Below are positions 1 to 63,975 of a stretch of 64,000 bases of DNA, one piece after another. The stretch is taken from positions 682,001-746,000 of the forward strand of contig JAFCMP010000457.1 of assembly GCA_017506865.1 (NCBI GenBank). The letters run 5' to 3'. A model generated the notes under the pieces. The model searched no databases and was not told the origin of the DNA. It saw only the letters and a list, made by a program, of their open reading frames with translations. Numbering within the stretch: position 1 is the stretch's first letter; every line of letters starts with the position of its first letter. This DNA is from Tribonema minus. Taxonomy: Eukaryota > Sar > Xanthophyceae > Tribonematales > Tribonemataceae. The translations under genes were made by a program, and so were the position numbers.

Positions 1-3000
1 CGAATGGTCCAGGATATATTCGCGACATCTGGCCCAGCCCGGTGGACGGAGAGGCCTGGAAGCTAATAGGATCCTATGCAGCTTTCGAGCTTGCGCTGAT
101 GAGGATTGTGCCTGGAAGGAGGTTTGAAGCGACCGCCACCGCCACTGGCCATGTGTGAGTTGCAGCAATTGCTTGTAGGTTGGCTTGTCTTTGCGAGCTT
201 GGCATCGGTCAGAGCCAGACCTACTTCAGGACAGGGCATCAATGGCAGCAGAGTGGATTATTTGACCACTGTTGATGTTCATCGCACAAGCACTTGAGAC
301 ATGCCATCATACACATGAATGAGGGGCTTTTGGCGTCGCTGCAGCAGCCCTGCCTTCACCACTGCCAGCATCCATCTGTGCCAGTCGCAACAAAAGAGCT
401 AAGAGCCCTTTCGATGACAGTCTCATGAGTGTTTTGCTGAGGCAATGCCAGTTGACTGCGAGGCAATTCTTATTCACTCAAACTTCAGCAGTCGCGTATG
501 AGATACGAAGGCCTGAAAAGGCCTATATGTGTACATGGTGGGAATGTGCAGTTTTCAGCGCAGCAAAGTCAGCTACCAACTGACTGCAACGGACCGCGAA
601 GCAGCGTGGCAACATGCTTCAGCCACGAGCTGTGCCTGGCACACATTAGTGTTGCAGTGAGCCACAGGGAGTCACCCGTGGAAAAAGCAGAATGACAAAA
701 CCGTACATTACAGACATGGTCGCGCGGGGCTCATTGGCCCGTGTTGTGATGGATCAAAACTGCCGCTGATAGTGGCATAACGGCTTTTGTTGCGGGCGCA
801 TTGCGCAACTGCTCAACTAAACTTCAAGTACCTGCCCCCGTGCCGCATAGGCACATGAGTGTAGAAATACCATGTATAGTGTGCACATGGCGGCTTGGTT
901 GTACAGCAGCTGCTCTGCATTTCAATGATTTCATCAAGATGCATGCGGCGTGCGCACACCTCATCGAAAGCAGCACGGCAACAGCAATGCGCCCTCCCTG
1001 CCCCTCCTTTTAAATTCTCACAAGCCGCGTCCCTCCACCTTCTGTGCGCACATTGCCCAGCTTGCATCCCCCTTGCAACCGACCCCCCTTGCGCAGCAAA
1101 GTGTCCCCAGGCCCACGACATGGCAGCTCCTGTTTCGGAATTCTGTCCGTACGTGCTTCCTTCTGAAGCCACAGTGGCACTCAGCGCCAACGCGCCATTG
1201 CGCCCCGCGAGTGGCACCCCCCTCACCCCCCCCCCCCCACCACCACCATGCGCATGCGCAGGCCAGTGTACAGGTGCAGTGGCATGGTGTCGCCCTTCAC
1301 CGCAACTTCATGTCCTCTTCGCTGAAGTCTCCCCCATAACCCCCCAACCCTTTCCGCCCCCCCGCCCTCCACGCCGGTCTACAAGGCCAACGGCATGGCG
1401 TCCTTCGCCCTCACGCTCGCCGCGTACGCGCTGCTCGTCGCGGCGGGGTGTCCCCCTTCGACGCAACTCTATGTCCTCATCGCTCAACTCCCCCCCTATA
1501 ACCCCCCCCGCCCCCCATAACCCATAACCCCCCCAACCCCCCCCCCACAGGCCCGTCTACAAGGCCAACGGCATGGCGTCCTTCGCCATCACGCTCGCCG
1601 CGTACGCGCTCCTCGTCGCAGCGGGCTGGGACAGCGGCGTCGTCTACGACAAGCTCGGTGAGATCCTCTCGGGGCTGTGCGTCTTCTCGCTCGCCTTCTG
1701 CGCGGCGCTGTACTTCAAGGGCCTCTACGCGCCGTCGACGCGCGACTCCGGCACGAACGGCGCGGGCCCCCTGAAAGACTACTTCTGGGGGACGGAGCTG
1801 TACCCGCGCGTCCTCGGCTGGGACGTGAAGCAGTTCACTAACTGCCGCTTCGGCATGATGTTCTGGGCGGTCGGGCTGCTGTGCTACGCGCACCGCCAGG
1901 CGCGCGAGCACGGCGCCGTGAGCGACTCCATGGCCGTGTCCGTGCTGCTCCAGCTCGTGTACATCGCCAAGTTCTTCCACTGGGAGATGGGCTACATGTG
2001 CACCATGGACATACAGCACGACCGCGCGGGCTACTACATCTGCTGGGGGTGCCTCGTGTGGGTGCCGAGCGTGTACACGTCGGCAGGTGAGCGGAGGGGC
2101 GCGGGGGGGGGGGGGGGGGGGGGGGTGAACGCGCATTGAATTCATGCGCGAGGGATGGATGCCATTTGTGCAGTGCGGGGGGGTGGGGGGGGCGCATCGG
2201 GCACCGCGCGAACTGTTGGCATTCACGCGGGAAGCTGCGTTGAGGTTGGGTCTAGCACAGCCTGATGATGATGGCATGTGTTTGCTGAGCATGGGAGCCT
2301 TGTGCTTAGCTCGTGGTGCTGGCGGCGCAGGCCATCAGTGGATCACGTTGTTCAATGAGCTTGTGGTGGGCTGTGGGTTCTCTCTATCGCAGGCACGCAA
2401 AGACCCCAGCACGGCAACTTCACATTTGTTGTCACTGTTGCCACTTGTGTCCTGGCATCTGGTGGCGCGCAAGAGCGCGGACTATTCCCAGTCCCCCGCC
2501 CCTCCCCGCCTGCCTCTGCTAGCTGTCAGCGACAGGAGCCACTGTTGTGCACGTGCTGCATGTAGAGCCTTGTACACCGTAGGCACTTTAGTTGTTCATG
2601 TCACACGCAAGCCGCGCATCTCCTCAGTCAATCCAGTCTCTGTCAAGTACTGGAGCAATCCGCTGGTGATACGGCAGCTCTCTGCCTGCAGCGGCAACTA
2701 CTGATCTCAGCCCCCCCTCCCCCCCCCCCCTTCCCCCCCCCCGCCCGCCCCCCCGCGCAGGCATGTACCTCACGCGCCACCCCGTGCACCTCGGCGCGCC
2801 GCTCGCGCTCGCAATCACTGCCGCCGGCATCGCGTGCATCTGGGCCAACTACGACGCGGACCGCCAGCGCCAGCACTTCCGCGCGGTCGGCGGGCGCTGC
2901 GCCATCTGGGGGCGCCCCGCGGAGGCGATCGAGGCGACGTACGACAACGGCCGCGGCGGCACCTCGCGCTCGCTGCTGCTGTGCAGCGGCTGGTGGGGGC

Positions 3001-4022
3001 TCTCGCGCCACTTCCACTACGTCACAGAGGTGAGTCGATTGCATTTTTGTGTGTGCAGGAGGGGGGGGGGGGGGGGGGCGTGGTCTTGCTCGATGCTGCC
3101 GCGGGGGCAGACGTGGCTACACAGTGGGTCGATTGGGGTTTTGCGTGTGCAGGAGGGGGGGGGGAGTAGCGGGGTGTTGCGTTATCCTGCCGCGGGGGCA
3201 CACGCGGCTACGCTCCACTGCCTTGCAGGCGCGTACGTCAGTAGGTGGTGCTGTTGGTCTGTGTGGGTATGTGTGTGTGGGGGGGGAGGGGGATAGCGGG
3301 GCGTGGTGTTGCTCAATGCCGCTGCGGGGGCAGACGCGCCTATGTTCCGCTGCCTTGTAGGTGCATGCATCAGTAAGGAAACGGTCTTGGGCGGTGGCAG
3401 TAAGCCATGGCTCTCGTGCTGCACACACCAGCAAGGTCATTCGCCCTGTTGCCCGCACGTGCGGCCAGGGACGCTTCTGCTGCCGCACAACATTGCAGGC
3501 GCGCGCAGACGGTCACCTTGGCCTATTTTTCTATTCTCTTTCAAGGCAAACAGTCTACAGAACTCATGCATCCTCGCCCACCTTGAGGCCCGCTCAGTGC
3601 CAATGATTGCTGATGACGAACGCCTGGTGCCTACTCTGCTCCCACAGATTCGTCAGCAATTTCCCATCATGCCGGCACAGTTCGCTTGTCGCCAACATGA
3701 CCATGGCCGCTGTTCGGTCTCTGCCCTTGCGCCTGTAATCAGATCTCAATCATTCTTCAACTTCAACACTGATCTTCAACTCATGCCATACTCGCCACGC
3801 TGGTCGGCCCGCGCTCCACTCCCGCAGATCTCGTCGGCATTCCTGTGGAGCGTTCCGGCGCTGTTCCACAACGCGGCGCCGTACTTCTACGTCGTCTTCC
3901 TCGTCATCCTGCTGGTGGACCGCGCGTACCGCGACGACGTGCGCTGCCGCGGCAAGTACGGAAAGTTCTGGGACCAGTACTGCCAGCGCGTGCCGTACAA
4001 GATCATTCCCGGCGTCCTCTGA
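1..4022 (+). CDS. DHCR7: 7-dehydrocholesterol (sterol delta-7) reductase, 5' partial
   Basis: Reduces the C7-C8 double bond of delta-5,7 sterols with NADPH in the ER membrane, a late step of sterol synthesis. Four exons can be placed: <1-154, 1551-2086, 2761-3029 and 3828-4022; phases 2, 1 and 0 agree at the three introns. The reading begins inside the protein (GYIRDIWPSP), so the amino terminus lies upstream of the window. Family hallmarks are PVYKANGMASF at the start of exon 2, the sterol-reductase motif SGWWGLSRHFHYV ending exon 3, and a carboxyl end with RGKYGKFWDQYC and VPYKIIPGVL, closest to plant DWF5. Several hydrophobic membrane segments are evident. Introns 1 and 3 carry tandem repeats, described separately; introns 1 and 2 end in almost pure C tracts. 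Delta-14 sterol reductase is the main alternative, but the DWF5-like tail favours DHCR7. Confidence 0.92.
1288..1607 (+). repeat. Tandem duplication of a 3' splice region in DHCR7 intron 1
   Basis: Two diverged copies of a unit of about 160 bp lie head to tail (about 1288-1447 and 1448-1607). Each holds the intron end, a C-rich tract and the first codons of exon 2 (coding VYKANGMASFA). The second copy is the functional one, with CAG before 1551. The first has lost the AG at the matching place and is therefore a pseudo-exon start inside the intron. Confidence 0.85.
3040..3370 (+). repeat. Three-copy tandem repeat in DHCR7 intron 3
   Basis: Three diverged copies of a unit of roughly 110-120 bp. 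Each has a GTGTG(TG)CAG-like start, a run of G, and a conserved core GCCG(C)GGGGGCA followed by an 'acgcggctacg'-like stretch. Copies end in CAG or TAG, so the array contains several splice-acceptor-like sites far upstream of the true acceptor at 3827. Confidence 0.7.
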
Positions 4023-4566: not shown

Positions 4567-5150
4567 GTGTGCAATCCAGACGTCTTGCAGACGCGCGTAG
4601 TGTGTTTGTGAAGCAACGTGGTATTGAAGTTCAACGCCTTTTCGTGTCCACTCGCTGCTTGCTGAACAGTGGCATCAAAGACATTCGTCCAGCATCACAT
4701 GGCCATGTTAGCACTCTATCAATGGGTTGAGGCCCTACAGGGGCGGTGTCTACCAAAGGAGAGAGCTCCATCAAATGTGCTTCAGCGCAACTGCTTGAAT
4801 GTTGCAATATGACTTGGACTTGCAGTACTGGTTCCACCGGGCATGCAAAAATAAGCTAGGCTACATGCCAGTCGCGTGGATCTGCTTGTGGGCTTGCACT
4901 TGCTCACATGTAGACGCTACAAGGGGGGAGTGGACAAACTTATTTAATATGAGGCCCGGTTTTGAAAAAATAATGACCTTCAATGCATCATTATCTGCAC
5001 ACACACAAACACACACACTGTGTCCACTGCATACTGTGACTTCAACATCACCCCACCATCAGGCCGTGGATGACACCGTTTGCACGCACTGTAAATGCAC
5101 CTAACAGGTGGTTTTTAGAAGCAGGCATTTGCTTTGAAGGCATGGCATAC

Positions 5151-5270
5151 GTTCTCACAGCACACCTGCAAAACTTCAACCATTGAAAAAGTCAGTAGCA
5201 TTGACACAAACGTTCTCACAGAACACATGCAACACTTAAACCATTGCTGAAGTCAGCAACATTGACGCAC
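5151..5270 (+). repeat. 61-bp tandem duplication
   Basis: Two diverged copies, about 5151-5211 and 5212-5270, each opening with GTTCTCACAG and ending in a 'gtcag(t/c)a(g/a)cattgac' stretch. The first copy contains the AACTTCAA octamer that recurs through the window. Confidence 0.8.
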
Positions 5271-7771: not shown

Positions 7772-10700
7772 CTACTCGTCCTCTACAGCCGCCATGTCGG
7801 CGCCCGCGCCGCCCGCCGCATCCGCCGCCTCCGCCGCGCCCGCCGCAGCGGCGCCGCTATCCTCCTCCATCCTCTCTGCGCCGCCGCCGTCGCCGTTGCT
7901 GCGCGCGGCAGCGGGGCTCGGCGAGCGCGAGCGTGACCGCGAGCTCGCGCTGCGCGAGCGGCGGCGCCGCGGCGGCGAGCGGCTGCGGCTCCTGCTGCGG
8001 CTGCTCGAGTAGCTGGCGCGGCGGCGCCGCGGCGGCGAGCGCGAGCGCGAGTCGCGCCGGCCGCCGCCGCCGCCGCCGCGCCCGCCGCTCGCGCCGCGGT
8101 GCGGCAGCACGCGTATGAAGCTGTGGTCAAAGGGGTTGCGGAACTCCGAGTCGTCGAGCTTGCGCAGGGCGTACTCCATGTCGTCGCTGTCGGCGTCGCG
8201 CAGAGGGGAGGACAGTTCGGCGGGGAGGTGCGGAGAGGGGGTGAGGGGGGCAGGGGGGGGGGCACTGCGGGATGGATGGCGCCATGCAGCAGATGCGAGG
8301 TATGCCGGTGACGGCGCCTTCAGCCGCGCCGTGTTACGTAGGTGCCAGATGCAAGCAACTGCGCAATGGCCCGAGTGGGGCAGCACTAAGACGGCATTTG
8401 CTGGGGCAACACGCGTGAGCAACACGTGAAGATGCACCGCAGATGCAACACGCACGCGTACGCGACCTACAAGACCCATCAGCTGCGCAACTGACAGGAC
8501 ACGAGACGTACAGACCCACAAACCTCTGCACGAGACCACAACATCCCATACACTCCCGACACTTCTCGCCTATAGCAGCGCGAGCGCGCATGCCCCCCAT
8601 GCGTATGTGTATGCACGTACCGCGTGTTGTAGTGCACGATGCCGCCGCCGCGGTGGTCGACGTCCGTGTACACGACGTCGCCCGCCTTGCGCATGTGGTC
8701 CTTGAGGTCCTGCCAGCTGGCGCTCGGCGGCAGGCCCGTCACGATGACGCGCCACTCCGTCTGCCGCCCGCCGCCCATGGGCTGGCCTGCGCGGCGCGGC
8801 GCGCGCGAGAGAGAGGGAGACCCGCGGCGGCGCGCAGCAGGTGTGAGGGGCAAATGCTGCTGTAGAGTGTTTTCTGTGCGAAGACTTGACCAACTCCGGC
8901 GCTGTCAGAGGCGGCGGCGACGGCGCGTGCGCAAGCAGCGGCGCGTGAATGTCTCGAGACGGTGTACGAAGCTCATGGCAGCGCGCACACCAGCAGCAGC
9001 AGGTGTGAGGGACGTGCATGCTGACATGCATACGCTGCTGTAGAACGAATGGCGGGCGAGGGCGTGCAGCGACTCCGGCGCCATCTGCGCCAGCGGCGGC
9101 GCCTTTGGGCGGCGCCTGTGCCAGCGGCGGCGCTTCAACGTCCCAAAGCGACGTGCCAGACTCGCAGCAGCGCGCAATGCAGCGGGCAGCAGCGGGCTCG
9201 AGCGCGCCGACGGCGGCGCAGCGGCAGATGCGGACGCATGCGCAGCGCGGCAGCATGCACGTGCATCTCCAGTGCGCTGGAGCTGCTGTTGCCATTGTGG
9301 CACAGGCCCGAGGCGATCTGTGCGTATCCCGAGGGAGTCAGCGCGTCTGACACAGCGTACTGCGAGAACTGACATACACGCTGCGGGCAGGACGCAGCGG
9401 CATAGTGCTGTGCACAGAACGCACTGCAGCGCTTAACAGTGACGGGCCGATGGACAGACGATAGACAATACAGAGCAGGAACAGACCGCACGCACGCGAG
9501 AGGGGGGGCGCGGGCGGTGCAGGCACGCGCGTTCGCACGAGAACACGCCAGTGTACAGAGTTCACAGCAGCGAGCCACACCACACGCACCTCCGCCTCCC
9601 GCGCCACCGCGGCCTCCCTCGGGGCCTCCTAAAGGGTGGCAACGTTTTGGGGTGAGAGTGGGGGCAGCGAGAGGTGTCACAGGGCCTTCGTGCATGCATA
9701 CGTGCATGCGGCTGGGTCCTTCGTGTGCTCCCCCCCCTGATCAGGGTACGTTCCACATGTTTGTGCACCTGGTGCTACTCACCTGCTCAGTAGCATGATG
9801 TTTCAGCAGTAAGTTGCTGATTTGAAGCATAGGCAATGACCCCCCCCCTCCCCCCCTCGACAGCTTGCCAGTGACCGACCGCGCTACCACGCACTTCATC
9901 ACTGCCGGCAGCATGCAGCATGTGAGCAACACTGCAAACAGACGCGTTTGGCAGCTCCCAGCATCAGCCGGTCAGCGTTGGCGGGCATACGCGGCTTGCT
10001 CACCACTGTTGAAGTAGTGGATACCCTCCTGCACTACCGTCCTTCGGGTTAACTGGCCACTGCAGCACCAAAGTTCAATCCGCTGCTTCCACACTGACAG
10101 CAGCAGCTCGCCGTCCGACCAAGCTCAGCAGCTACGCCAACACTGCCATCCACTGCCCTACTCGCTCCATCACGATACCCCCCATTCCCCTCTGGCCCCC
10201 CTCCCTGGGATGGCCGTTGAAACCTCAGTGCGCGAAGTCTCGCGTACCTCTCATACCTCCAAAGCCCCCACGGCCGCCCATGCCCGGCGGTCCCCGCGCG
10301 CCACGCGCCAGCTCCACGCGCAGCCGCTCGCCATCCATTTCATAGCCATCGCGCGCTCGCACGGCATCCTCGGCATCGCGGACGTCGTCGAAGGCTACGA
10401 ACGCGAATGCCGGCGGGCGCGCCGGAGTCTTGAGGTCGATGTCACGGATGCGCCCAAACTTGTAGAAGAGGTCCTGTAGAGGCACAGATGCGGGCACGGT
10501 CGAGAGTGTGGTGAGCGATGGGGCAAAGCCGGGTGCAGCACTGAGGGCGAGCCAAGTAGGCAGGCACCGAGGTTTCAACACATTGACGAGCGTCACTGGG
10601 CTGAACGCCAATGAGTTCGCTGAGAAAGCCAGCTGATGGATGTACATCGTTGATCACCAGACGCCTGCACAACAAGGCGATCCTGGTTGTGGCAAGCGGT

Positions 10701-16403: not shown

Positions 16404-19317
16404 ATGGGGGGTGCTACCATGAGTGAGGAGCCGCGTTGCCCTCCTGATGACCCATGTTTTTTCAAACGGACGGCGCTCAACTGGACCTTGCGCGGTTTGT
16501 ATCGCGAGCAATGGGAGGCTCTGGAACAACTGATGCCGCAGCGCGACAAAGCGAGGGCCCTGGATGATCAAGATCAGGCACATGCCTTGAGCAGTGAAAT
16601 TGACTGGCGAGAGCAACTTTTGGACGCCTGCAGAACTACCGTGCCGGCCAAGCAGGATGAGGTAAGACTTATCGAAAGCGGTGAGTGTGCATGTGACCAC
16701 GATTTGCCAGGCGCGCCAATCGTCTGCTGCGTGGTAGAGAGCTTGCAGCTGCATGTGTCTCGCAGTGGCGCTCTTCGCACGACATGCATCTACTCATCTA
16801 CTGCGACTGTGAGGACATGACCGTTTAAAACTAGGCAACTTCAAACTTCAGGGCTCGGAAACCACCAGGTGCTGAACAATCATGCTTCCTTGCATAGGCT
16901 TCACCGCTCTTTGCGCCCTCCCACTGTGTCTATCCCTGCAGTCCCGCCAGAGTGGCTGTTCTCGCATCTGCCCCTTGTGGACCAACCCTTCGCACACATT
17001 CTCTCTAGATGCTGTACAGAGGCGCACTTGAGGCGTTTCTTTTATTGCTTCCTAGCCTACCGCGGCGTGTTTACGTGGCAGGATGCCAAAACGCTGCATC
17101 GCGAATCGGCAGAACTCAGCGGTATTCCAAGTGCGCTGGTTGTTCGCCTGCTGGATTACATCCGGGAGATGGAACACCGCTTTGGCGCAGGCAAGGCATT
17201 TTGCATCTTGGGCCCATCAACTTGTGACATGTATATTGTTAAGTTGTGCTCCTGATGGCTGTGACTCAAGAGCTGACCATCACCTTCCCGTAAGCTCAGC
17301 ATGCACGAAATGCACAACCTGGTCATCGAGTAGTTGCATAGCAGCACATCGACTCATGTGCTTTCCTCACTCTCGTGGACTGTTGCCATTTGCATGTGTG
17401 TCCCCTCCATGGCATGTCCTTGTGCAAGTCATAGTTTTGTTGCTGGGCTTTAGTGATGCTGACCGAAATCAAACTTACGCTCCCTGCATGATTCTGTCAG
17501 CATTGGCTTGGCTGGTCTGGTGCCTAGTGTCACCCATGCTTGCGGCATATTTGGTGCAAGCACTGATGCTGTTTCCTTGTTGTGGTTATGCATGCCCTCG
17601 TCGTGTGCAGAGCTCGCAGCTCTGGCGCCTCCGCCCCTGCCACCTTCTGGCAGGCTGCAAGGCCTGCACGATGGAATGACTGCAGGGGGCGCCAGCCTGA
17701 GTGAGGAGCCGCGTTGCCCTCCTGATGACCCATGTTTTTTCAAGTAGACGGCGCTCAACTGGACCTTGCGCGATTTGTACCGCGAGCAATGGGAGGCTCT
17801 GGAACAACTGGTACCGCAGCGCGACAAAGCGAGGGCCCTGGATGATCAAGATCAGGTGCATGCCTTGAGCAGTGAAATTGACTGGCGGCACCAGCTTATG
17901 GATGCCTGCAGACCTGCTGTGCCCGCCAACCAGGATGAGGTCAGACTGATCGAAAGCGGTGAGTGTGCAAGTCACCGCGGTTTGCTAGGCGCGGCAGTCG
18001 TCTGCTGCGTGGTACGCTCCCACAATACTTGCTTCAACCCCTTGAGCTTGCCCATGTATGCATCTTTGGGCATATCATCACAGTAGAGAGCTTGCAGCAG
18101 CATGTGACCCGAAGCGGTTTCCTTGGCACGACATGCACTTCTGCGTCTAACGCGGCTGTGAAGCTATCGCCTGTTGAAGAATAGGCAACTTCAACTTTAA
18201 GGCTCAGGAACTAGGTGCTGCTCGACAATCAGCGCATATCACTGAAGAGGTGGGAAGATTGTCAGCGCGTGCTGCATTGCATAGGCTCAACCGCTCGTGC
18301 GCCCTCCCACTGTGTCTATCCCTGCAGTCCCGCCAGAGTGGCTGTTCTCGCATCTGCCCCTTGTGGACCAACCCTTCGCACACATTCTCTCTAGATGCTG
18401 TACAGCGCCGCACTTGAGGCGTTTCTTTTATTGCTTCCTAGCCTACCGCGGCGTTTATACATGGCAAGATGCCAAAACGCTGCATCGCGAATCGGCGGAG
18501 CTTAGTGGTATTCCAAGTGCGCTGGTCATTCGCCTGCTGGATTACTTCCGGGAGATGGAACATCGCTTTGGTACAGGTGAGCCATTTTGCATCTTGGGCC
18601 ATCAAGCTGTGACATGTATACTTTGAAGTATTGTTCATGCATCCTTAAATCATAAGGATAAGTACCGTATGTCGGGGCTTATGTGACACACATCCGCCAA
18701 GCGTGATGTGCACGTTCCCATATGCTCAGCATGCATGAAATGCACAACCCGGTTATCAGTAGCTGCTTGGCAGCGCATGGAGTCAACCGATGTGCTGTCC
18801 TCACTCTTTTGGGACTGTGCCATCTGCACGTGTGTCCCCTGTGGCAGGTCCTTGCGCAAGTCATAGTCTTGTTGCTGAGCTCGGGCACTTGGTGTTGCTG
18901 ACCAATATGAAATCTACGCTCCCTGCATGATTCTGTCAGCATTAGCCTGGCTGCGCTGGTCTGGTGCCTATTGTCACCCATGCTTGCGGCATATTTAGTG
19001 CAAGCACTGATGCAGTTTCCATGTTGTGGCTATGTGTGCACTCTTCGTGTGCAGAGCTCGCAGCTTTGGCGCCTCCCCCCCCGCCATCGACTGCGCCAAG
19101 CAAGTGCAACGATGTATGGCTGCCAGCAGCACATCAGTGGGTAGGAGAAACAGTGCGGGGACTGTATGGCGGAGCTGCTGCTCATCAGCCTGAGCATACC
19201 TGCATTGGAGACATTGAGCTTCGCAAGCACGAAAGGCTCAAGAAGCTGGTATGCGATCCTGCACTCATACACCCACATTGTACATGTCGGCGGGCATCTG
19301 AGGCCTCAGTATGTTAG
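16404..19317 (+). CDS. Unrecognised gene with an internal tandem exon duplication
   Basis: I do not recognise the family. Copy A has exon 1 (16404-16680, MGGATMSEEPRCPPDD), exon 2 (16942-17190, starting PPEWLFSHLPLVDQPF) and exon 3 from 17611. Copy B repeats this nearly unchanged: exon 1' to 17958, exon 2' at 18328-18576, exon 3' from 19055 to 19248 or the stop at 19317. Exon 3 of copy A runs without an intron straight into exon 1' of copy B, marking the duplication junction at about 17680. All introns are phase 1. Exon 1' carries a TAG at 17745-17747 where copy A has Arg, so the plain reading ends there at 220 residues. Joining exon 2 directly to exon 2' would keep frame and skip that stop. 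Copy A intron 2 begins GC (17191), where copy B has GT (18577). The predicted protein has cysteines and a helical stretch, RFFYCFLAYRGVFTWQDA. Confidence 0.5.
17686..19100 (+). repeat. Second copy of a roughly 1.3-kb tandem duplication
   Basis: This segment matches about 16420-17650 across exons and introns, including the intron borders. Exons differ at only a few residues. Its first intron has about 71 extra bases (18013-18083) relative to copy A. The close match in introns points to a fairly recent event. Confidence 0.85.
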
Positions 19318-20580: not shown

Positions 20581-20617
20581 CATGGTGGTTTTCACGTTCT
20601 TCGTTGGCATGTTTCTG

Positions 20618-28338: not shown

Positions 28339-28358
28339 TTAGGGTTAGGGTTAGGGTT
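28339..28358 (+). repeat. Interstitial telomeric repeat (TTAGGG)3
   Basis: Three perfect TTAGGG units plus TT. This tract immediately precedes the CAG-rich sequence that leads into the LINE remnant. Confidence 0.95.
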
Positions 28359-36668: not shown

Positions 36669-36710
<42 letters not shown>

Positions 36711-45596: not shown

Positions 45597-48500
45597 ACAA
45601 CAGCAGAGGCGTAGCTCACGCTGCTGTCGCGATGGCTCGTGCACGCGCTGCTCTGCGCGTAGCGCACAAACAGCACCGACCACAGCGCCGAACCGCCGCC
45701 TGGGGGGTTGGGGGGGGGGGGGGGGACAGCGCGGAATGCGCAGCAGCAGACCGTGAGAGCTTGCACGTAGGCGGAAGAACGCATGGCTAGAGTGACAAGT
45801 CAACGTCCCTGGCATGGCTATTGGAGTGCAGGGTCAGCGCATCGTGCATGCGCTGTGCACAGCTCACTGCGTAACCGCTCAGAGCCGCCTCTGGCCGCGC
45901 AGCTGCAAGCGGTGAAGCGGCCGCACGTCGCCACGTCCACCGCGGCGCATCGTCCTCCACGCACTGTCACCAGAGGCAGACAACACACAGCCCGGAGCCG
46001 TGCAACAGCGGCAAAGCGGCTCTGGCCGCAAAGGTGAGAGCAAGCAGACTGAGAGCAGCTGTCTATGTGCCTCTAGTCACAGGCTGTCGTTCGGCCAGCA
46101 GAGGCAACTGCTGCTGTGGCACGTCGTCGCCGCTGTGCAATGCGCTCCTGCCGCAGTGTCCCGCATGAAACCGCCAGTCGCAAGCAAGCGCGTGAGCAGG
46201 CACTCTGCAGCCCCTCGACACAGCAGCCGGCGCAACGCACACACCGTTCCAGTCGACGGACAAAGACCACTGCCGCCACAGCCTACGGCCAGTATGAAGC
46301 AGCACGCTGCACGCACCGTTCTCGCCCGCGAGCGCCGCCGCCATGGCCGGCTGCGCATCCGCTTCAGCACCTTCGCCGCCGCCGTCGCCACTTGTGAGCG
46401 CGCGCACAGCGTGCATGAACGCGCAGATGGGGTGCCTGCCGCAGATGGTGTTGCGGTGCTCGCGCAGGTACGCGTAGAAGCCGCCGAGGTCCTGCGCCTC
46501 CAGCAGCGCCATGCCCGCGTGGTCGAGCCAGCGGATGTACTCGTGGACAGCGCCGCGCGCCGCGTCGTGCGGCTGAGTGTTGACGCAGCGGCAGCAGCGC
46601 AGGCACAGAGCGTTTTTTCACGGAGGTGTGTTTAGTGGTCAATGTTGACAGTACGTCGGCATGGCGTGGTCGAGCCAGCGGACGTACTCGTGGACGTGGA
46701 CGGCGTCGCGCGCCGCGTCGTGCGGCTGAGCGTTGACACAGCAGCAGCGCAGTTGCAGAATCAGTACCGTTACTCACAGCTGGTGACACAGCAGTGCAGG
46801 CAGCGCATTCACAGAAATGTTACGAGTGCTCGATGTTGGAGGTATGCGCGCACGGCGTCATGCGGCTGAGCGTTGACACCGCAGCAGCAGCGCAGGCAGC
46901 GCATTCACGGAAAACGGAGATGTTACGAGAGCTCAATGTTGGAAGTATGTCGACACAGCGGCGCGGCGGTAGTGGATGACGTGACTTCATTCGGAACATG
47001 ATGATTTTCCAGTGGGGTACGTATGCCTGAGCGCCCCCCATACTCCACCTACATGCCTGGTGCCGGGGGCGCGTGCCCCGGTGGCAGAAGTCGGAGCTGA
47101 CAGGTGGAACTGCCATGACCTCGAGCGCACCCGTATACAACCTTACCTGGCACCAAAAGCACACCTCGGTGGCAGAAAACGGAGCTGACAACTGAAACTG
47201 CCATGACACCATACCCTACCTACCTACCCACCTGGTACCGGAAGCGCGCGCCCCAGTGGCAGAAGTCGGAGCTGACGATGAAGAAGTTGGCGGGGTCTCT
47301 GAGGTACGGCGCCAGCAGCGCTCCGTAGCGCGCCTCCGCGGCCTCGCTCGTCGCGCCGACCATAATGGCCACCACAGAGCACGGCGCGTCGCCCATGCGC
47401 TTCTTCACGTACGGCAGGTGCATCTCTATGCTGCGGTGGGGGGGGAGGGGGGTGACCCAGGGGGGTGGGGGGTGGGGGGTGGGGGGTGGGGGCTTAGGGC
47501 AGCCATGGGAACGTGTGCATGGCATGTGCATGGATCAATGTAATGCTAGAGGAGCAGCGGAGCATTGCGGCTGTTGCGGCGCGGCCGGACATGATCTGCG
47601 TGATTTGTGAGGCGCATGGCGACTGCACTCGCGCGTATGTGTGGGAGGTGGTTGAAGTACATGAATATGGAAACGCATCACAAGATTGTAGAGCTCTAGG
47701 TGACAAGGTGTGTTTAGCCGCCATTGCCTTCCACCAATAACTGTAGTCGCCGCTGTTGCAGTCATTATATATATACATGACCGCCGCTCCCATGGTTTAC
47801 TGGGGATTGAGTAGGGGAAGCGTAAACCTTAGATCACCCGTCTGTACAGTTACTATTAGTAGCTGGCATAGCGTGGTGCCAGGATTTGGAGTTGGCAGCA
47901 AATGAGGCCGCGAAGCACCGCAGAGCACCGGCGGCCGCGGTGCTTTGCGAATGATTCACTCTTAGATGAGCTTGAGACGTCGTCAACATTATACAAAACT
48001 GTTGCGCATAAATTGATTGTGCCCAGCGAGCTGCGAGGTGGACACACCGTAGAATTCAATACTGACCAAATCCACAAGAGACTGCTCTGATATCTAATGC
48101 TCTTACATAGAGTGGCCCCCTGTGTATCCTTTCAAGTATAGCAATCGACACACGTATACCGACCTGTGCTCATCCTCGTCATCTTACATCGAGCGCTCTC
48201 GCGCAGAGTGGCCCCCCTGTGACCCCCCTGTGACCCCTCTCAAGAGTTTACAGCAATTGACACACATACATACCGACCTGTGCTCATCCTCGTCGACGTC
48301 CTGCGCCATCGCCTCAAACGCGCCGGTGCGCATGAGCTGCGCGGCGACTTCCTTGTCCACCGCCAGCTGTCCCCATGGCGTGTCCAAGTACGTGGCCAGC
48401 GGTACGTACCCTTTTCACCATAGCAGCAATTGTAACTTAGGGTTCGCTCAGGGTTACGCTGACCTGTGCTCGTCCTCGTCCACGTCCTGCGTCATCGCCT

Positions 48501-50035
48501 CAAACTTGCCAGTGCGCATGAGCTGCGCGACGACGTCTTTGTCCACCGCCAGCTGCCCCAGCGGCGTGTCCAAGTGCGTCGCCAGCGAGATCGCGCAGCC
48601 GCTGAGGTGGACGTGGTGGCTGGGGCCGAGGATGAACACGCGCTGCGGCGCCGCGGATGCAGCGCAGCACGCAGGCGCAGCGCAGCGGGTGGGGAAGGGG
48701 AGTCAGGCGCATGCGGGCGGCGTGCGGAGCGCTGCGAGTGAGAGTGCGCGCACGATGGCGGGTGCGGCGGAGTGCCTCATGTACAATATGATGGTCAACA
48801 TTGATTGTAAACTTCGGAGTACATGTGCTTTGTTCGAGTATGCTTCTTGAAGTACTTCATAACATCAGAGGGAGCTTCAGCTGCCGTGTGCACTGGTGCT
48901 GCCGCATCCTTGCGGTCAGCTGGACAACGCGACGACTATTCACGTCAGATTTGCTACGGCGTGTTGAGCTTGCGACGTGCTGGAAGGTTATGTGCGCTCT
49001 AGGATGCAGCGGTCGCTGTCATACTGCACGTGCAGCTCCTAGGATGATGTTACCGCAAGGCCCAACCAAGGACAGCTATCTGTTTCTACGTCAAACATGA
49101 AACTGCAAAGTACGACAGGATGGAGAAGGCAGGTGCTGGCTACACTGTCAGACAAAGCATCACAAAAGTATCTGCGAGAGGTAAATAATATATATCGCTG
49201 CAAATGAAGCGTTCATCGTTGTTGGCACCAATGCGAGTTGACAACAGCGATACAAACCAGTACACTGATCAATGAACACAGCTGACTGAAGCATGGTAGG
49301 CTAATGAGAGCGGGGTAGGGTTTGGTTGGTGAGGGGGCTAGGGCTTGATTAGCCCCCATGTAGTTAGGGCTTCAAAGCCTAGGATAGAATGAGCATTTGT
49401 TGGCTTGCTGACAACAAATACAACACAAACAAACATGGTTACATGCTGTGCGTTTGCACTGCTTCTTTCTTGCCTGCAACGACTCCTTGGTCATGTCCTG
49501 CCTGTACAGCTTTGTTCAACCCTGGATCGCAACAGGCTAGGCTAGACACATCTCGACGCACAGAGAGGGATCTGCAGGGAGTTGGCATACCAGGCTCAGA
49601 GTTGACCTGCGCAGTCCCTCAACTCAAGGCCGAGTCTCAAACACCAATGTTTATATGCTGTGAGCAGCAGCTGTCTCTTATACACACTGGTACATGTGGC
49701 GAAAAAAGTCACAGATGCATGAAGCTTGAAAATGCCGAGCCTCGTGTATGGATATGCACATCACTCACCTTTGTCACCCTGGGATCCAGATAGGTGTAAG
49801 CATGGGCAGCAGTGGCACCGCTGTAGCTGTATCCAGCGTGTGGGGCAATGATCGCCCGCACCCGCGGGGGAGGGAGGGATCCCTGCGCCTGCAGGGGGGC
49901 AGGCACCTGCTGTACAGCACTCAGCCACTCCTCCAGCTGCTGATCCAGAGCTTTCCCGTCATCGGTATACCAGCTCCCAGCATGCGAGGCACGCCGTACA
50001 TAGCGGCGAGGGCTGGAAGAGAAGAACGAGGTCAT
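45597..50035 (-). CDS. MEMO1: MEMO1 family protein
   Basis: MEMO1 is a conserved metal-binding protein related to class III extradiol dioxygenases, linked in animals to cell motility and copper/redox control. Five exons: 50035-49769, 48642-48464, 47430-47232, 46572-46371 and 45709-45597. Phases 0,2,0,1 fit, giving 319 residues (human 297). Signature blocks in order are [85 protein letters not shown] and the end VRYAQSS ... [13 protein letters not shown]. The conserved His residues (APHAG, GPSHH) and the Cys of TICGRHP are all present. An upstream in-frame extension to about 50203 is less likely than the ATG at 50035. Exon-border copies lie in three introns. A Gly-rich insertion precedes the last exon. 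Confidence 0.95.
46573..46960 (-). repeat. Exon-start copies in MEMO1 intron 3
   Basis: The true exon 4 acceptor (CAG at 46573-46575) is followed upstream on the minus strand by a copy at about 46658-46753 and a shorter one at about 46850-46910. Each repeats GTCGTGCGGCTGAG(T/C)GTTGAC or a close variant. The first copy also carries codons for a [11 protein letters not shown]-like stretch, so it is a duplicated exon start. Confidence 0.8.
47040..47275 (-). repeat. Three-copy donor array at MEMO1 exon 3
   Basis: Exon 3 ends [11 protein letters not shown] at 47232. Two further diverged copies of this exon end lie downstream on the minus strand, at about 47143-47205 and 47057-47118, about 83 bp apart. 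Each keeps a GT or similar after the copied exon end. Confidence 0.8.
48122..48583 (-). repeat. Duplicated 3' half of MEMO1 exon 2 with donor
   Basis: Real exon 2 (48642-48464) codes [21 protein letters not shown] copy at about 48278-48400 codes [20 protein letters not shown] and ends in the same CAG before GTCGGT. A third, short copy of the donor lies at about 48156-48182. The copy's phase does not allow simple inclusion after exon 2, so it is probably a non-functional decoy. Confidence 0.85.
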
Positions 50036-53809: not shown

Positions 53810-53840
<31 letters not shown>

Positions 53841-57004: not shown

Positions 57005-60000
57005 ATGGGGGCCAAGATCAAGTGCTCTGGGGCGGAGATACAGAGATTTCTACTGAAATGGTTCCTGCCAATCGGCTTTGCAAAGGCCATATTGATTGCC
57101 CTTGCGTGGCCATATCCTGGAGCCACGGTGGGATCGTGGAAGGTTGGGCACTTCAAACTCGTTCAGGCAAGTGTGTTGTGGGAGCAGTCATTTGACAGCG
57201 TGTGGTCCAGTACTTCTGGTTTGCGAGCGCAATTTCATAGGAGCTCTACCAGGCCAGATGACACCCTTGATGTCTCACTGTGGCTTGTGTCAAGCTGGAT
57301 CCTGTCCATGCTGTGTCTCTGCGGTATGTCAAGCTAAATCTGCGCCTGCGCCGTGGCAGTGCCCCATTTCCAGTTTGCGTTTACACTCCTTCAAACCACA
57401 AAACTGCGGTGTGGTGGTTAGGTTAGCATGGAATTCCGTAGCGCGATGCTGCAGTATCGCAGGCGGCAAGTGGCAGCAAGGAAGACGCAAGTCGCTGGCC
57501 TGACATGCTTAGCCCAGAGAGATTCAACGTGCATGCCTCACAGCTGGTGACCATGACACGCGCGCGCTGCAGCAACTCTCTGCGCGCAATCAGCTTTGGC
57601 CCCTGCGCACGCGCATCCCCGGCTACTGCCCCCATGCTTCACAACACCGCGCTTCCGGCATCAGACCCTTTCCCATCCCTCACCGCCATCCCCACTCCCC
57701 CCCTAACCCCCTCCCCCTCCGCAGACGCTGAATGTGATGACGGTGTTCTTCATCAGCGGACTGGGGCTGAAGACGTCGGATGCGAAGAGCGCGTTTAGCC
57801 GCGAGGGCTGGGCGGCGTTCGCATACGGCCTCGTCATGATCCTCGGCGTGACGCCGCTGGCGGGGCTCGCCGCGGCGCGTCTCCCGTTTGAAGTTCCCGA
57901 GTTCAAGTACGGCATGGCCGTCTTCTGCGCGGTGCCGACGACTATTGCCAGGCGAGTGCGGCACTGCGTGAAGGCGTCTTGTAGCTGTGAGGCGGCGCAT
58001 TTGACATCGAGCACTCTTGCACGCCACGGACTGACTTACAGTCAATCAGCCCTTAGTCAAAAGAGCCGAACGTGCCCTCTTTGGAAAAGGTCACTGCTGC
58101 AATTTTTGGTAGAATGAGTGTCCTGGTGTCGTGAGCGAACTTGGTTTCTCTGCGCCATCGTCCGTGGCACTGACTGCGGAGCGGAGCGTGCACGCTTTGC
58201 GGAGGCTGTGGCAACTGCATGTGAAAGTTGAAGATAAACACACTAAAGTAACCTGCCCCAGGGGCATTTCCTGCTCAAACGATATACCCTACCTGCTTTC
58301 AGGAGATTGACTGCACAAATTTGCCTTCCCTTCCTTCCCCCCCTGTGCGGGGTTCCCTTTTCCAAAAACCAATTACTTGTGCCAGATGAACTTTGGATTT
58401 GAAGTTCTCGCTACATCGCCGGTGATCATCATGTCAGGCAACGAACCCCATCTCGAGCATCGTTGAGCATTGCTGCAGCAACGATGCTTCAGGGCTAAAA
58501 GTAACAGACAAATTGAGAGGGTGCCGCGTCATGTTGTATGCATCTTGTTGCGCAGCCACAAGGCGCTTCAGCTCGACGGCACCCCATTTTGAACCCCCCG
58601 GGGCGCTTTTGTTCACCCTAGAAGAGCTCTCAGGCAACAACAAAAACAGATCTCACATGCCCCAATGCCCGATGGGGGGCTGCCGATAATGCCGGCATGC
58701 TCTATGCCCCTACCCTACCCCAAGGATCATCTGCTGCTTCTGACTGAGCTGCAGCATCGAGTCAGCCCCAATGCCAAGCTGCTCCGAGTGCTTAGGGTCA
58801 GGGTTAGGGTTAGGGTTCGTTCAACACGCTGGGCCGCAAGGCGGAGTGATGCGCCGCGCCTACAACAGCATTTGCGAGAACTGCCTTCGCCCTCTAGAAG
58901 GCTCGTGGGTCGTTGTCAGAGGCATGCCCGAGCTTAGGAAAAGCTGTCATCGACCCCTACGACAAGTTGAACATTGCGGCTCGCTGTCGTCCCCCACTGG
59001 AGCTCTCTGTCAACTTCATACGCTCAAGTACCTGGTGGGGTTCTACAGCCGCGGTAATGATTGGCGCGTGAGGACTGCCTTCCGCGAGGCCCTCAGCATC
59101 GCGGACCTGGCCCAGCACCCTGGCAGCATCGGCATCACCTGCACTGCAATGTTCGTGAGCTGGGGGCTCGACGTCACCGTCCCTGCTGTCCCGTTCCCAG
59201 CGGAGCAGGGAACCCCGCTCATCTCCCCCATGGTTGTTGAATCACTGCAGCAGCACAGCAGGGTCGGTGACCTCGAGCCCCCAGCCAACGACCATTGCAC
59301 TGGGGGTGATGCCGATGCGGGCAAGGTGCTGGGTCAGGTCGGTGGTGCTGGAAGGCCTCGCGGAAGGCACCCTATTTGCGCCAATCAACACCGCGCCGGC
59401 GGCTGTAGACCCACAGGCGCCAGAGCGTATTGACAACGCGCTCCAGTGGGGGACGCCTGCGAGCCTCCATGTTGTCATAGTGGTCGACGACAGCTTTTCC
59501 TAAGCTCCCGAGGTCATGCCTCTGACGACCCATGAGCATACTCGACTATTTCATGTGATTTTAGGTCGCAACTGTCTCATATTCAAAATTTAGATGAGCT
59601 GCTGAGTTGTGCACCCATACATATGCAGTACTTCTATGATGCGCATAGTGACGCACGTGTGTATGGTAGTGAAGGACGCACGCGGCGGCGCATGTGCCGT
59701 GGTATCACGGCGTGCGTCTGCGATGCATTTATCGCGTGCAGGGTTCCATTCACCTGCCGTGCCTCATGTTTTCTGCAGTACTGGACATGTTAATGCCCGC
59801 GTTTGCTGCGGCAAACACGCAAATCCGCGGCGACCTGAGCACATGCTGAGTTGTGGATGGCCAGAGTGACGGAGCGCACGATGCAATTCGGCAACTTGAA
59901 GTAGTGAACCGTGCGCACACATAGATCACAGGTGGTGGCCATGCTGTCTGTGGAGCAGCAGCCGTGTTGGCGTGAGGGTCACGGTGGACACCGGCTGCGA

Positions 60001-63000
60001 GTGAGCCCCCAGCGCGCTGGCATCTTCCTGCATTGTGTACTCACTGTCCAACACAGATTATAACACAAAGTCTCCGGTGCAACTGTTATCTCATGCACAA
60101 ATCCCGCGTAGTCTTTTCACGTGTATGAAGCGGATGCATCGCTTCCGGTCCGTGCTGCCCTGTGCCGCTGCACGCGCTGCCTGACCGTAACCCTAACCCC
60201 AACCCTACCCGGTCGCTGCTGTCCTGTTCCGCTGCACGCGCTCCCTAACCCTAAATCTAACCCTAACCCTACTCCTAACCCTAACCTTGCGACAGTGGCG
60301 TGGCCCTGGTGAACCAGGCTGACGGCAACGGCGCGCTCGCGCTGCTGCTGACCGTCGCCTCCAATCTCCTGGGCGTCGTCATCGTGCCCTTCTGGGTGCG
60401 GGGGCTGCTGTCCAGCGAGGACGTGCACATCGACGCGCTGCGCCTGCTCGTCAACCTCCTCATCACAGGTACGTCGCATAGTTGTGATCTTCACATAAAC
60501 GACGGAGTGCAACTGCAGTGCACCAGGAGTACACCGGCATTTTGCTGGAATTCGCTGGAAGAAGAACGCCCTGGGCAGCTTGCGTGCACATCGACACGCT
60601 GCGCCTAATCGTCAACCTGCTCGTCACAGGTGCGCATTTGCGCTGTTCGCAGTGCCGGGCAGTTCATGCCAACCGTACTGAAGTGCACCAAAAGTACACC
60701 GGGAGTACACCAGGACGAAGTACTACAACCATTGCACACCAGCTTGCGTGGCTGCTGTCCAGCTTGCGTGCACATCGACGCGCTGCGCCTGCTCGGCAAC
60801 CTGCTCATCACAGGTACGTTGCATAGTTTAGTTGTGCCGTGAACGGGGGTTGAATTGTTGTTCACGTGAATGGCGGTGCTGGAGTACACCTGCAGTACAC
60901 TGGGATTACACCGGGAGTGCACTGAAGTGCACCCGGTGCACACCGGGCAGCTTGCGTGCACATCGATGGCGTGCGGCTACGCGTTCACCTGCTCGTACAG
61001 GCATCGACCAATAGCTGAGCCTTCATGTAAACTTTATTGAGTACGCCAGATCTTTGCCAAGGTACACCCGCAGCACACTAGGTTGCTATTTGCGTGCACC
61101 ATCGTGCGGCTGCTTATCAACCTGCTCGTCACAGGTACCTTTGGTGCCGCATCCTCGCGCTGCGTGCGTGCTGTGTGACATAGAACCTGCAGTACTGAGC
61201 GGGCATTGACGCAATGCAGTGATGCTCATCATCCCGCTCATCACAGGTGCAGAGGCCACGCACTTGTGTTTGCTGTGTGCATGCTGAACCTTTCATATTC
61301 AAAGCGCGCATCAAAGCACGCCGCGCAGTGCCAACGGCGGTGCATCAGTGCAAGCACCACCAGCGCTCCCGCGTGCACCTTCTGCGCCTTGGTCCGCGCC
61401 TCTCTAGGCTGCCAAACAACGACGGCAGCGCCGCGCGCGCGCTCGTGGGCCGCGTCCTGTTTGGGGTTAGGGTTACGGTAAACTACTTCCAACCCAATCC
61501 TACCCTCACATCCCTTTTACAGTGCGTACGCGAAATATAACGTAAGCAACAGTCAGTGCCCTGAGTCATCATCCATCATCATCACCAAACGCTGAACATG
61601 ACAACGGAGCGCCTCGCCTCGGCAGCGCTGCGCATGGCCTGCGTCCCTCGCTTGCAGCGCTGGCCGGCCCGCGCGCGTGTGCCCTTGACCAGCAACTTAG
61701 TACCAATAAATCTGCAGATACGCTGCAGGCTCACGCACACACCAGAGAATGACGACGGCACTGCTCCGCACGCCCTGTGTTCTGCGTCTCAGTGCTGGCG
61801 CCGCTGCTGGCGGGCCAGGCGCTGCGTGTCGCGCGCCCGGCCGTGCAGCCGTGGGTGGCGCGGCACCGCACGCAGCTCAAGATCGTCAGCAACTCCTCGC
61901 TGGTGAGCGTTCGCACTTCAACAGCGCTCTCTCTCTGCGGCTGCGCATGCGACGGCGGCGGCGCGCTGCGTAGTGGCGATCGCCAGAGCGGGATTGCGCA
62001 GCTGACGCGGTGCGCGTGCCCCCCAACATTGCGTGTAGGTATGCTACTTGCGGTTATGAGTGGGGTCAGGGTCAGGGTTAAACTGAAGATTGGGGTCATG
62101 TGCGCATGCGCGACGCATGTACAGGAGCGGAGGAGGCAAATCTTGCTCATTCTCTTCTCTCAGCAGCAGCAGCAGTGCATTTAATTTCCACTCACCTGTG
62201 GCTCGCACAGGGGATTTCGTTGTTAGAAACATGCGTCCGCAGTCGATCAGCGCAGCGCGCACTGCTGCCGCTGCCATCGCCGCCGCAGGCGCTGCCGCCG
62301 CCACCGCTGCTGGTGCACTGCTGGTGCGGCTCAGCGCACGCTCAGCCAGCCCTCCAGCGCTGTGCGCTGCCGCCGCCGCCGCCACCGCCGCCGCCGCTGC
62401 CGCTGCCGCTGCCGCCGCTGCTGGTGCACTGCTGCTGCGGCTCAGCGGAAACTCAACCAGCCCTCCGGCGCCGCGCGCTGCCGCCACCGCTACCGCCGTC
62501 GCCGCCGCTACCGCCGCCGCCGCTGTCGCTGCCGCTGCCGCCGTCATCATTGCTCAGCTGCTGCTCCCGCGTGTCCTGCCCGCGCAGGTACTCATTGTGT
62601 GGCAGACGATATCGCGGTCGGCGCACGAGATCACCTCCGTCAGCGGCGGCGCGCTGGCATCCGTCATTGCCGCCGGCACCGCGCTGCACGTCTCCTACCT
62701 CGCTGTCAACTACACCCTCGCAGCGTGAGTGAGTGGCTCCCGGCCACGGCAGCAACGCTGCGTGGCGGCGTTGCTCCCCGCGCCCTGACGGCGCTTGCAT
62801 TAATATGCGTTAACGGCCTGTCTGGGACGGTGATGGCCGCCTGCGAGCAGCAGGGTCCTAGGTTTGGATGGTCTTGACACATTTCGCATTTCGCGCATAC
62901 CTCCCGATCAGTGCACGGTTTGCATGAGACATCTAGGGTTACGCTTAGGATCAGAATTGCGGTCAGGTCTAGGGTTAGTACTTGACCGTTTTGCAACATT

Positions 63001-63573
63001 TGCGTGCTTTCCGTTCAGCCCATGCGGCATGTGTGCCCCCTTGCTGCTGGTAGCACGGTACTCGGTCAAGCAAGGTTTCAGAAGGACAGCAACTGTGCAG
63101 TGTTCAGATACGACAACTGTAGCAACTGAACAGGTTCAGAGACTGCATGCCACAGCGTATACCACGATTCATGTAAGCCGATGTTCCGATATCTCTAACA
63201 CTTCATCTGGCAGGACTGAGAGGGACTAGCTGTTTCTGGAACCCCCTCCTCCCCCTGCCCCAATTCACACACACACAATGCTTTAGCACCCAAGTGCTGC
63301 ACAAGCCACTGCAACATGGCCCTGCTTTACTGTCGGCACCACAGTTGAGGGGGGTCAGTATACGAGAGTACCTACGACTCAGCTTGGGCATTCTGCAATG
63401 CACACATTCCCCCGCGCCATTCTGGCACATTCATAGGAGCTCTGCACTCCATTGCTACTGCTTCATGTTTTGTGACTGTACTGCCGCACAGACACGTGTT
63501 CAAGTTCAGGCGGCCCGAGATGAAGGCCGTGGTCATCATGGCCAGCGAGAAGACGCTGCCGGTCTCCATTGCG
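57005..63573 (+). CDS. SLC10A7: SLC10A7-type bile acid/sodium symporter-family transporter, 3' partial
   Basis: Multi-pass membrane protein of the SLC10 fold; SLC10A7 and its yeast relative RCH1 affect cellular calcium. Visible exons: 57005-57166, 57725-57951, 60296-60468, 61793-61902, 62588-62724 and 63492-63573. Phases 0,2,1,0,2,0 fit; the remainder lies beyond 64000. The protein starts MGAKIKCSGAE, with the first membrane segment FLLKWFLPIGFAKAILIALA. Then come MTVFFISGLGLKTSD, CAVPTTIASGVALVNQADGN, LLGVVIVPFWVRGLL, NLLITVLAPLLAGQ, QTISRSAHEIT and VVIMASEKTLPVSIA. These follow the human SLC10A7 order (FFNSGLSLKTEE, VGGNEAAA, GIVITPLL, VVPLIIGQ, CSTHKSLTLGIPM). Introns 1 and 2 begin GC rather than GT (GCAAGT at 57167, GCGAGT at 57952). 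Introns carry telomeric repeats and an array of exon 3 copies. Confidence 0.87.
58792..58818 (+). repeat. Interstitial telomeric repeat in SLC10A7 intron 2
   Basis: One degenerate and two perfect TTAGGG units, within the 2.3-kb intron 57952-60295. Confidence 0.92.
60187..60290 (+). repeat. CCCTAA telomeric tract directly before a 3' splice site
   Basis: CCCTAA units and variants fill 60187-60211 and 60243-60287, separated by a copied GC-rich stretch (CCGCTGCACGCGCT, also present at about 60167). The tract ends about 4 bases before the CAG closing intron 2 (60295), so it occupies the place of the polypyrimidine tract. Confidence 0.93.
60413..61250 (+). repeat. Six-copy array of exon 3 end plus donor, SLC10A7 intron 3
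   Basis: The real exon 3 end (VHIDALRLLVNLLIT, donor GTACGT at 60469) is followed by copies ending at about 60629, 60813, 61000, 61134 and 61246. Copies 2 and 3 are each exactly 51 bases between an AG and a GT (60579-60629 and 60763-60813), open in the exon's phase. Spacers hold short GTACACC-type words. Confidence 0.88.
61461..61475 (+). repeat. Short telomere-like tract in SLC10A7 intron 3
   Basis: TTGGGGTTAGGGTTA. Similar degenerate tracts lie in later introns at about 62060-62080, 62933-62941 and 62969-62979. Confidence 0.6.
62250..62560 (+). repeat. GC-triplet tandem duplication in SLC10A7 intron 4
   Basis: Two copies of a unit of roughly 120 bp: GCTGCCGCC-type triplets, then GCTGCTGGTGCACTGCTG, then 'gcggctcagcg' and a CAGCCCTCC(A/G)GCGC end. 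They lie between exons 4 and 5. Confidence 0.65.
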
Positions 63574-63975
63574 GTGAGTGCCGTGGCGACCGCTTTGTGG
63601 CATTGCTGAAGCGTGGTGCTCCGTTGTCGGCGGCTTGCGGCGGCTTGTGTCCGTGCAATGAGCATCTTCAGTGCCGCAGCAATCGCTTGGTGGCACTGTG
63701 TCAACGTCGGCTTGAGTCTGTGCAATGCGCGACTTCGGTGCCGCAGCGGTTGCCCTGTGGCACAGCTGAAGGGAGCTGCTGAGTTGATGGCAGCTCGTGG
63801 CCGTGCAAACCGCGACCTCAGTGCCGCAGCAATCACTTTGTTGCACTGCGTCAACGGCGGCTTGTGTCCGTGCAATGCGCGACTCCAGTGCCGCAGCAAT
63901 CGCCTTGTGGCAGCGCTGAAGTGTGCTGCTGGCTTGACTGACGGCGGCTCGTGTCCGTGCAAAGCGTGACTAGGG
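63574..63975 (+). repeat. Minisatellite at the window end in SLC10A7 intron 6
   Basis: About five diverged units of 65-85 bp, each with CAGTGCCGCAGCAATCGC, then TTGTGGCAC(T/C)G, then GGCGGCT(T/C)GTGTCCGTGCAA. It begins right after exon 6 and continues to near the window end. Confidence 0.8.

Follow-up and report, generated by a model that had tools for sequence, protein, structure and literature searches.

Intron growth is usually credited to transposons. The system described here consists of short tandem arrays that copy exon-intron borders, found in a 64,000-nucleotide stretch of the Tribonema minus genome (contig JAFCMP010000457.1, positions 682,001 to 746,000; hereafter the window). Related events have been reported elsewhere. 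In the RNA-dependent RNA polymerase gene of potato, a tandem genomic duplication across an intron-exon boundary is reported to have created a new intron (PMC4974935), and fission yeast is described as having new introns made of tandem repeats (PMC3629103). At DNA breaks, CST-guided fill-in by Pol alpha-primase followed by end joining is reported to yield small tandem duplications, and those of this main pathway are described as having less microhomology than polymerase theta duplications (PMC8355091).

In the window, small local tandem duplications are present in several introns, and some of them carry a piece of the neighbouring exon and its splice site. As in the potato case as reported, the unit in DHCR7, in a CEP78-like gene and at exon 4 of MEMO1 combines the 3' end of an intron with the 5' part of the next exon (PMC4974935). 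However, the potato report describes a new intron, demonstrated by comparison with related plants, whereas here the same intron has apparently been lengthened; the arrays here also have more copies, include copied donors, and are known from genomic sequence alone. The likeness to the fission yeast introns, as they are described, is that both consist of unequal tandem repeats with similarity reaching into the exon, but there exonic units create a new intron, and here a pre-existing border lies within the unit (PMC3629103). What the window contributes is a set of several cases within 64 kb, arrays on the donor side as well, copy numbers as high as six and introns that were apparently lengthened as a result. 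Among the titles and abstract openings listed, with most subscription journals outside the scope, we found no description of border-copy arrays in many introns of one genome. This silence on such a genome-wide pattern is a weak sign of novelty.

We modelled seven genes, selected for borders that could be placed either from homology or from clear splice sites together with the reading frame. DHCR7, a leucine-rich-repeat gene that we take to be CEP78, a SET-domain gene and SLC10A7 lie on the plus strand; an SRSF1-like splicing factor gene, MEMO1 and a long coiled-coil gene (33.2 to 44.2 kb) lie on the minus strand. The models contain 36 introns and 71 borders. The sequence is eukaryotic, with a GC content of 62.5% and with GT-AG and some GC-AG introns. 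Of the donors in the models, 2 of 36 lack the expected dinucleotide, as does 1 of the 35 acceptors, and those models may be one base off or wrong; the ends of several gene models are approximate. Coding stretches at 11.5 to 12.8 kb, 16.4 to 19.2 kb, 30.7 to 31.4 kb and 50.2 to 50.8 kb stood outside the border tests.

For the border scan, a 60-base segment at each border (40 exon bases, 20 intron bases) was searched against the remainder of the intron it belongs to and against the other introns. Clear own-intron copies were found at 6 of the 71 borders, with scores of 41 to 95, and no border exceeded 32 in a different intron. At these six borders, head-to-tail copies contain both the exon and the intron sequence of the border. 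The six arrays are as follows, with percentages from self-blastn and scores of the border segment in its own intron and elsewhere.

1286 to 1628, plus strand: acceptor array of DHCR7 intron 1 and exon 2; two copies, 80% over 182 columns; acceptor 1550 scores 70, elsewhere at most 23.
26124 to 26374, plus strand: acceptor array of CEP78-like intron 5 and exon 6; 83 to 87%, also called by Tandem Repeats Finder (TRF); acceptor 26357 scores 59, elsewhere at most 23.
46517 to 46955, minus strand: acceptor array of MEMO1 exon 4; three copies, 73 to 88%; acceptor 46573 scores 41, elsewhere at most 22.
47047 to 47276, minus strand: donor array of MEMO1 exon 3; three copies, 73 to 85%; donor 47231 scores 57, elsewhere at most 28.
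48116 to 48587, minus strand: donor array of MEMO1 exon 2; three copies, 82 to 88%; donor 48463 scores 71, elsewhere at most 22.
60403 to 61252, plus strand: donor array of SLC10A7 exon 3; six copies counting the exon, 71 to 91% among the nearer ones; donor 60469 scores 95, elsewhere at most 23.

Successive copies are spaced 60 to 187 bp apart. No clear border copy was found in 31 of the 36 introns, and two further borders were borderline (CEP78 donor 25010, 26 against at most 20 elsewhere; DHCR7 acceptor 3827, 24 against 22). A sequence-only reading of the window had named these same three acceptor arrays and three donor arrays in the four genes, with a unit of about 60 to 190 bp; the scan recovered exactly these six, and the measured spacing agrees. 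It had also counted a duplicated-exon gene among the border-copy cases, but that locus is of another class, a 1.28- to 1.35-kb tandem duplication with whole exons. Its proposal of a local duplication process in this genome is borne out as a recurrent one. Self-blastn returned 28 local direct matches in the window at E<1e-3, whereas shuffled windows (third-order Markov, 2-kb blocks) gave no local direct repeat at that threshold in 20 of 20 runs.

The SLC10A7 array is the largest. The last base of exon 3 is at 60468 for the functional border and at 60629, 60813, 61000, 61134 and 61246 for the copies, so that intron 3 contains five inner copies of the exon end, four with a GT donor and one with GC. 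The two farthest copies were placed by multiple alignment and a common motif only. All three MEMO1 arrays lie within its last two modelled introns. The functional last base of exon 2 is 48464, with copies at 48278 (124 nt of coding sequence) and 48164 (the last 17 to 20 bases only); that of exon 3 is 47232, with copies at 47147 and 47057, the latter followed by a GC donor; and the functional first base of exon 4 is 46572, with copies at 46725 and 46865. In DHCR7, the duplicated unit comprises the end of intron 1 and about 75 bases of exon 2. Its functional acceptor is 1550/1551, and the copy at about 1374 reads CACG and has lost the AG. About one base is shared at the copy junction, as judged by eye at this single junction, the others having decayed. 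The CEP78-like array has four acceptor copies 60 to 82 bp apart, and about 17 exon bases lie inside the array beyond the outermost acceptor. We took 26357/26358 as the functional acceptor, because only the outermost of the four joins exon 5 without a stop; two of the three inner acceptors are in register, yet they run into stops. Intron 4 of this gene contains a decayed array at 25060 to 25290, with a 17-base perfect repeat at a distance of 102 bp and a 13-base match to the end of exon 4. It is possibly a seventh border array, and its two decayed copies, which have no usable donor, were left outside the donor count given below.

From homology and reading frame, we infer that splicing uses the outer border in DHCR7, MEMO1 and SLC10A7; for CEP78, reading frame only points to the outer border as the functional one. 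Pfam matches run across the outer-border joins (ERG4_ERG24 at 4e-75 in DHCR7, Memo at 2e-65 in MEMO1, SBF_like at 9e-47 in SLC10A7), which suggests that an existing intron was lengthened in each case.

We propose, with a probability of roughly 0.7, that the arrays arose by local tandem duplication that shows no evident preference for borders, followed by neutral decay of the inner copies while the outer border stayed in use. In this scenario, small local tandem duplications, with copies 60 to 187 bp apart, would recur in introns without clearly favouring splice borders. If the duplicated stretch includes a border, the enlarged intron would come to contain the inner exon end together with its splice site. 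The protein would remain unchanged as long as the outermost border is used, that is, the upstream-most donor or the downstream-most acceptor. Straddling duplications would be tolerated, since nothing that splicing and coding require is missing from the outer copy. The inner copies would then decay neutrally, some arrays would expand further, as the six copies in SLC10A7 may illustrate, and intron growth would be a by-product. The duplications themselves may originate in break repair by end fill-in or in slippage, and later array growth may involve slippage or unequal exchange within the array. The fill-in pathway is alike in that it produces short tandem duplications of local sequence, but the report concerns mouse and human cells, induced breaks and insertions under 100 bp, and its link to this genome is by inference (PMC8355091).

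In addition to the six border arrays, the window contains these arrays and duplications.

3030 to 3342, plus strand: DHCR7 intron 3 array; about three copies, self-blastn 79 to 81%; starts at the exon 3 donor (3029/3030).
16407 to 19086, plus strand: tandem duplication with whole exons, the duplicated-exon gene; 1.28 to 1.35 kb, self-blastn 90% and 78%.
60145 to 60272, plus strand: SLC10A7 intron 2 array; a 64-bp unit present twice, with telomere-like sequence; confined to the intron, ending 23 bp before exon 3.
62278 to 62532, plus strand: SLC10A7 intron 4 array; 111-bp unit (TRF), wholly intronic and partly low complexity; blastn 81% only with the low-complexity filter off.
63577 to 63970, plus strand: SLC10A7 array in the intron after exon 63492 to 63573; self-blastn 64 to 90% and alignment; starts 3 nt downstream of the exon end.

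The closest competitor of the border-blind account is a bias in the duplication itself, in which breaks linked to transcription or splicing would make exon-intron junctions hot spots. We compared borders with intron interiors by cutting the introns and their borders into tiles and scoring a tile when it had a copy in its own intron. With 60-nt tiles and a score of 36, border-spanning tiles were copied in 27 of 355 cases (7.6%) and interior tiles in 186 of 2043 (9.1%); a first version of the test gave 27/355 and 181/1969. The border-to-interior ratio ranged from 0.72 to 1.13 over 40-, 60- and 90-base tiles at three thresholds, and all nine bootstrap intervals, taken over introns, contained 1. 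Measured against the interior rate of each intron itself, border tiles gave observed-to-expected values of 0.88 to 1.57. The interior copy rate was flat with distance from the border, at 9 to 10% per bin from 20 to 500 bp, and was 2.5% beyond. Exon tiles with a copy in the adjoining intron (28 of 1236) all lay less than 60 bases from the border.

Other results weigh on the side of a bias. In introns of at least 600 bp, border tiles were copied in 17.3% of cases (n=150) and interior tiles in 11.6% (n=1287). We also distributed 10 arrays randomly within their genes, each keeping its observed span; this test excluded three blastn arrays located outside the modelled genes (5146 to 5269, 16407 to 19086 and 20345 to 20530) and the coiled-coil gene, and the SLC10A7 donor array was entered as 60403 to 61001. 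Six of the 10 arrays span a border, against 2.6 to 4.3 expected, with P between 0.02 and 0.21 depending on the null. Uniform placement gave 4.2 to 4.3 expected (P of about 0.2), largely exon-sparing placement within the own gene gave 2.6 to 2.8 (P of 0.02 to 0.03), and largely exon-sparing placement over all six genes of the test gave 3.2 to 3.3 (P of 0.06 to 0.07). Two further arrays, DHCR7 intron 3 and SLC10A7 63577 to 63970, both absent from the sequence-only reading, begin directly at a donor or no more than 3 nt from it, with no appreciable exon copied; the DHCR7 intron 3 border segment scores only 19, marking an intronic array that abuts the border. Finally, local copies with a partner within 700 bp were commoner in intron tiles (91/994) and mixed-class tiles (15/234) than in intergenic or unmodelled tiles (16/1291), with 25/608 in exon tiles and none in a distant-sequence control. 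However, genes outside the models contribute exons to the intergenic class, and the independent arrays are few.

Taken over all introns, tile rates at borders and interiors are alike, and most introns have no clear border copy. Within this window there is not clearly a border preference, and enrichment of up to about twofold is compatible with the data. The idea that borders are special duplication targets is thus not upheld by the tile rates, though the long introns and the placement test hint otherwise, and we regard border-biased duplication as unlikely.

A second competitor is that inner copies are kept as functional alternative donors, acceptors or small cassette exons. Splice sites and coding changes in the copies bear on it. 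The donor copies of the six arrays comprise 7 GT and 2 GC sites, and 7 of the 9 reach at least the 5th percentile of real donors. Among the acceptor copies, AG is kept in 5 of 6, and the same five reach that level among real acceptors. SLC10A7 copies 2 and 3 are potential 51-nt cassettes that preserve the frame and whose inclusion would lengthen the protein by 17 residues, a repeat of the exon 3 end, and no stop codon was found in any of six aligned exon fragments. Although the donors of these two SLC10A7 copies are of normal strength, the acceptors of both rank at the 3rd percentile among real sites. Indels are present in the more distant SLC10A7 copies, the AG is gone from the DHCR7 copy, and the inner CEP78 acceptors lead into stops. 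We also considered selective retention of donor cores in the copies, which the SLC10A7 alignment hinted at; 2 to 3 of 8 core bases are changed in MEMO1 exon 3, and the idea was dropped.

Coding changes were pooled over six aligned exon/copy pairs, giving 19.5 nonsynonymous and 15.5 synonymous differences, a nonsynonymous share of 0.56. A neutral copy facing a constrained exon predicts 0.60 (P=0.73). If both were constrained (omega 0.1) the share would be 0.23 (P=2e-5), and if both were neutral it would be 0.75 (P=0.02). Several points temper this agreement. The pairs are the better-preserved copies, two of the six come from one array, that of SLC10A7, and the changes within any one array are too few for it to be taken separately. 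Moreover, the intron-derived parts are more diverged than the exon-derived parts in 4 of 4 exon-versus-copy comparisons, which goes beyond a simple neutral model; ungapped identities are 65% versus 90% for MEMO1 exon 2, 75% versus 94% for SLC10A7, 83% versus 94% for DHCR7 and 93% versus 96% for MEMO1 exon 4. We have no firm explanation for this excess; the simplest is gapped alignment of partly non-homologous sequence.

The inner copies look like dead leftovers. Taken together, the copies do not combine two good splice sites with coding constraint as a cassette or mutually exclusive exon would: the pooled copies fit neutrality, the DHCR7 AG is lost and the SLC10A7 acceptors are weak. Retention of the arrays for function therefore seems improbable to us, slightly more so than a border bias. 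The proposal that the duplications seed alternative splice sites is possible at the level of sequence. Most donor and acceptor copies could serve as sites by sequence, but the pooled coding changes fit dead copies. A broader version, in which border-focused duplication lengthens introns and also stocks them with donors, acceptors and mini-exons (for example, the two 51-nt cassettes of SLC10A7 intron 3), some of them used to make protein variants, strikes us as more doubtful again.

Mobile introns of the introner type, or another dispersed repeat, would place the copies by nested insertion of an element that carries splice sites. Introners are reported as families of similar introns with 5 to over 2,000 copies per genome (PMC9860276). 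The arrays share with them, as described, repeated sequence tied to introns and splice sites, but the similarity found in the window stayed inside single introns (PMC9860276). When border segments were compared with the 36 modelled introns, interiors not being systematically compared, no introner-type family across genes appeared, and no segment resembled another modelled intron above the background maximum of 32. The copies also sit beside the exon they match and carry its coding sequence, and we consider such an element very improbable. GC-rich tandem copies are generally prone to misassembly, but an assembly or read artefact is hardly credible for copies that differ by substitutions and indels (9 to 36% over the local direct matches), with the substitutions structured by codon position.

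The arrays are unevenly distributed. All 181 copied interior tiles are in DHCR7, CEP78, MEMO1 and SLC10A7, and none of the 677 from the coiled-coil, SET and SRSF1-like genes has a copy. Arrays take up about 14% of the modelled intron bases. Introns with arrays have a median length of 925 bp (n=8), compared with 469 bp for those without (n=27; P=8e-6; the last intron, truncated by the window, was excluded), and the difference is not significant after the array bases are subtracted (P=0.13). Array introns are thus longer by about the length of the array, in line with the earlier claim that the process makes introns grow. Long introns offer more room for arrays, however, and the length comparison is partly circular, which counts against reading it as growth. 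With about a seventh of modelled intron sequence made up of local tandem arrays, stages in the absorption of a border-straddling duplication into an intron can be read in one window. We suggest caution for gene-annotation and alternative-splicing pipelines, since plausible in-frame exon ends inside introns may be neutral leftovers.

Spliced or partial products of the models gave Pfam matches above the curated cut-offs to ERG4_ERG24, RRM_1, Memo, SET and SBF_like, and a CEP78-like piece (exons 3 to 5) gave a leucine-rich-repeat match only, below threshold. Ten raw open reading frames had no Pfam match, nor did two minus-strand pieces of the coiled-coil gene. Rfam and tRNA searches of the window found nothing, and no relatives of the DHCR7, MEMO1 and SRSF1-like proteins were found among viral contigs. 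The coiled-coil gene (33229 to 44230, minus strand) has 11 short predicted introns of 181 to 643 bp and no tandem arrays, in contrast to MEMO1 and SLC10A7. In the SRSF1-like gene (8202 to 8260, minus strand), the last modelled exon starts without a nearby AG, which points either to an error in the model or to an unusual acceptor. SLC10A7 has GC donors at 57167 and 57952, two among the 36 modelled introns. In the duplication at 16407 to 19086, copy 2 carries an in-frame TAG in its first exon, and its second exon is open.

Interstitial telomere-like TTAGGG repeats amount to 27 hexamers in 17 clusters, with 19 in modelled introns, 8 in intergenic or unmodelled sequence and none in exons; sites include 28339 to 28356, 35676 to 35687, 58792 to 58815, 60191 to 60284 and 61467 to 61472. 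Shuffles gave about 7, but the median for hexamers of the same composition was 23, which leaves the multi-unit runs as the one clearly unusual feature. Inverted repeats are present at 20590 to 20893 and 21151 to 21442 (76% identical) and within 58893 to 59545 (73% identical). The latter is a long palindrome inside SLC10A7 intron 2 and is perhaps a transposon remnant.

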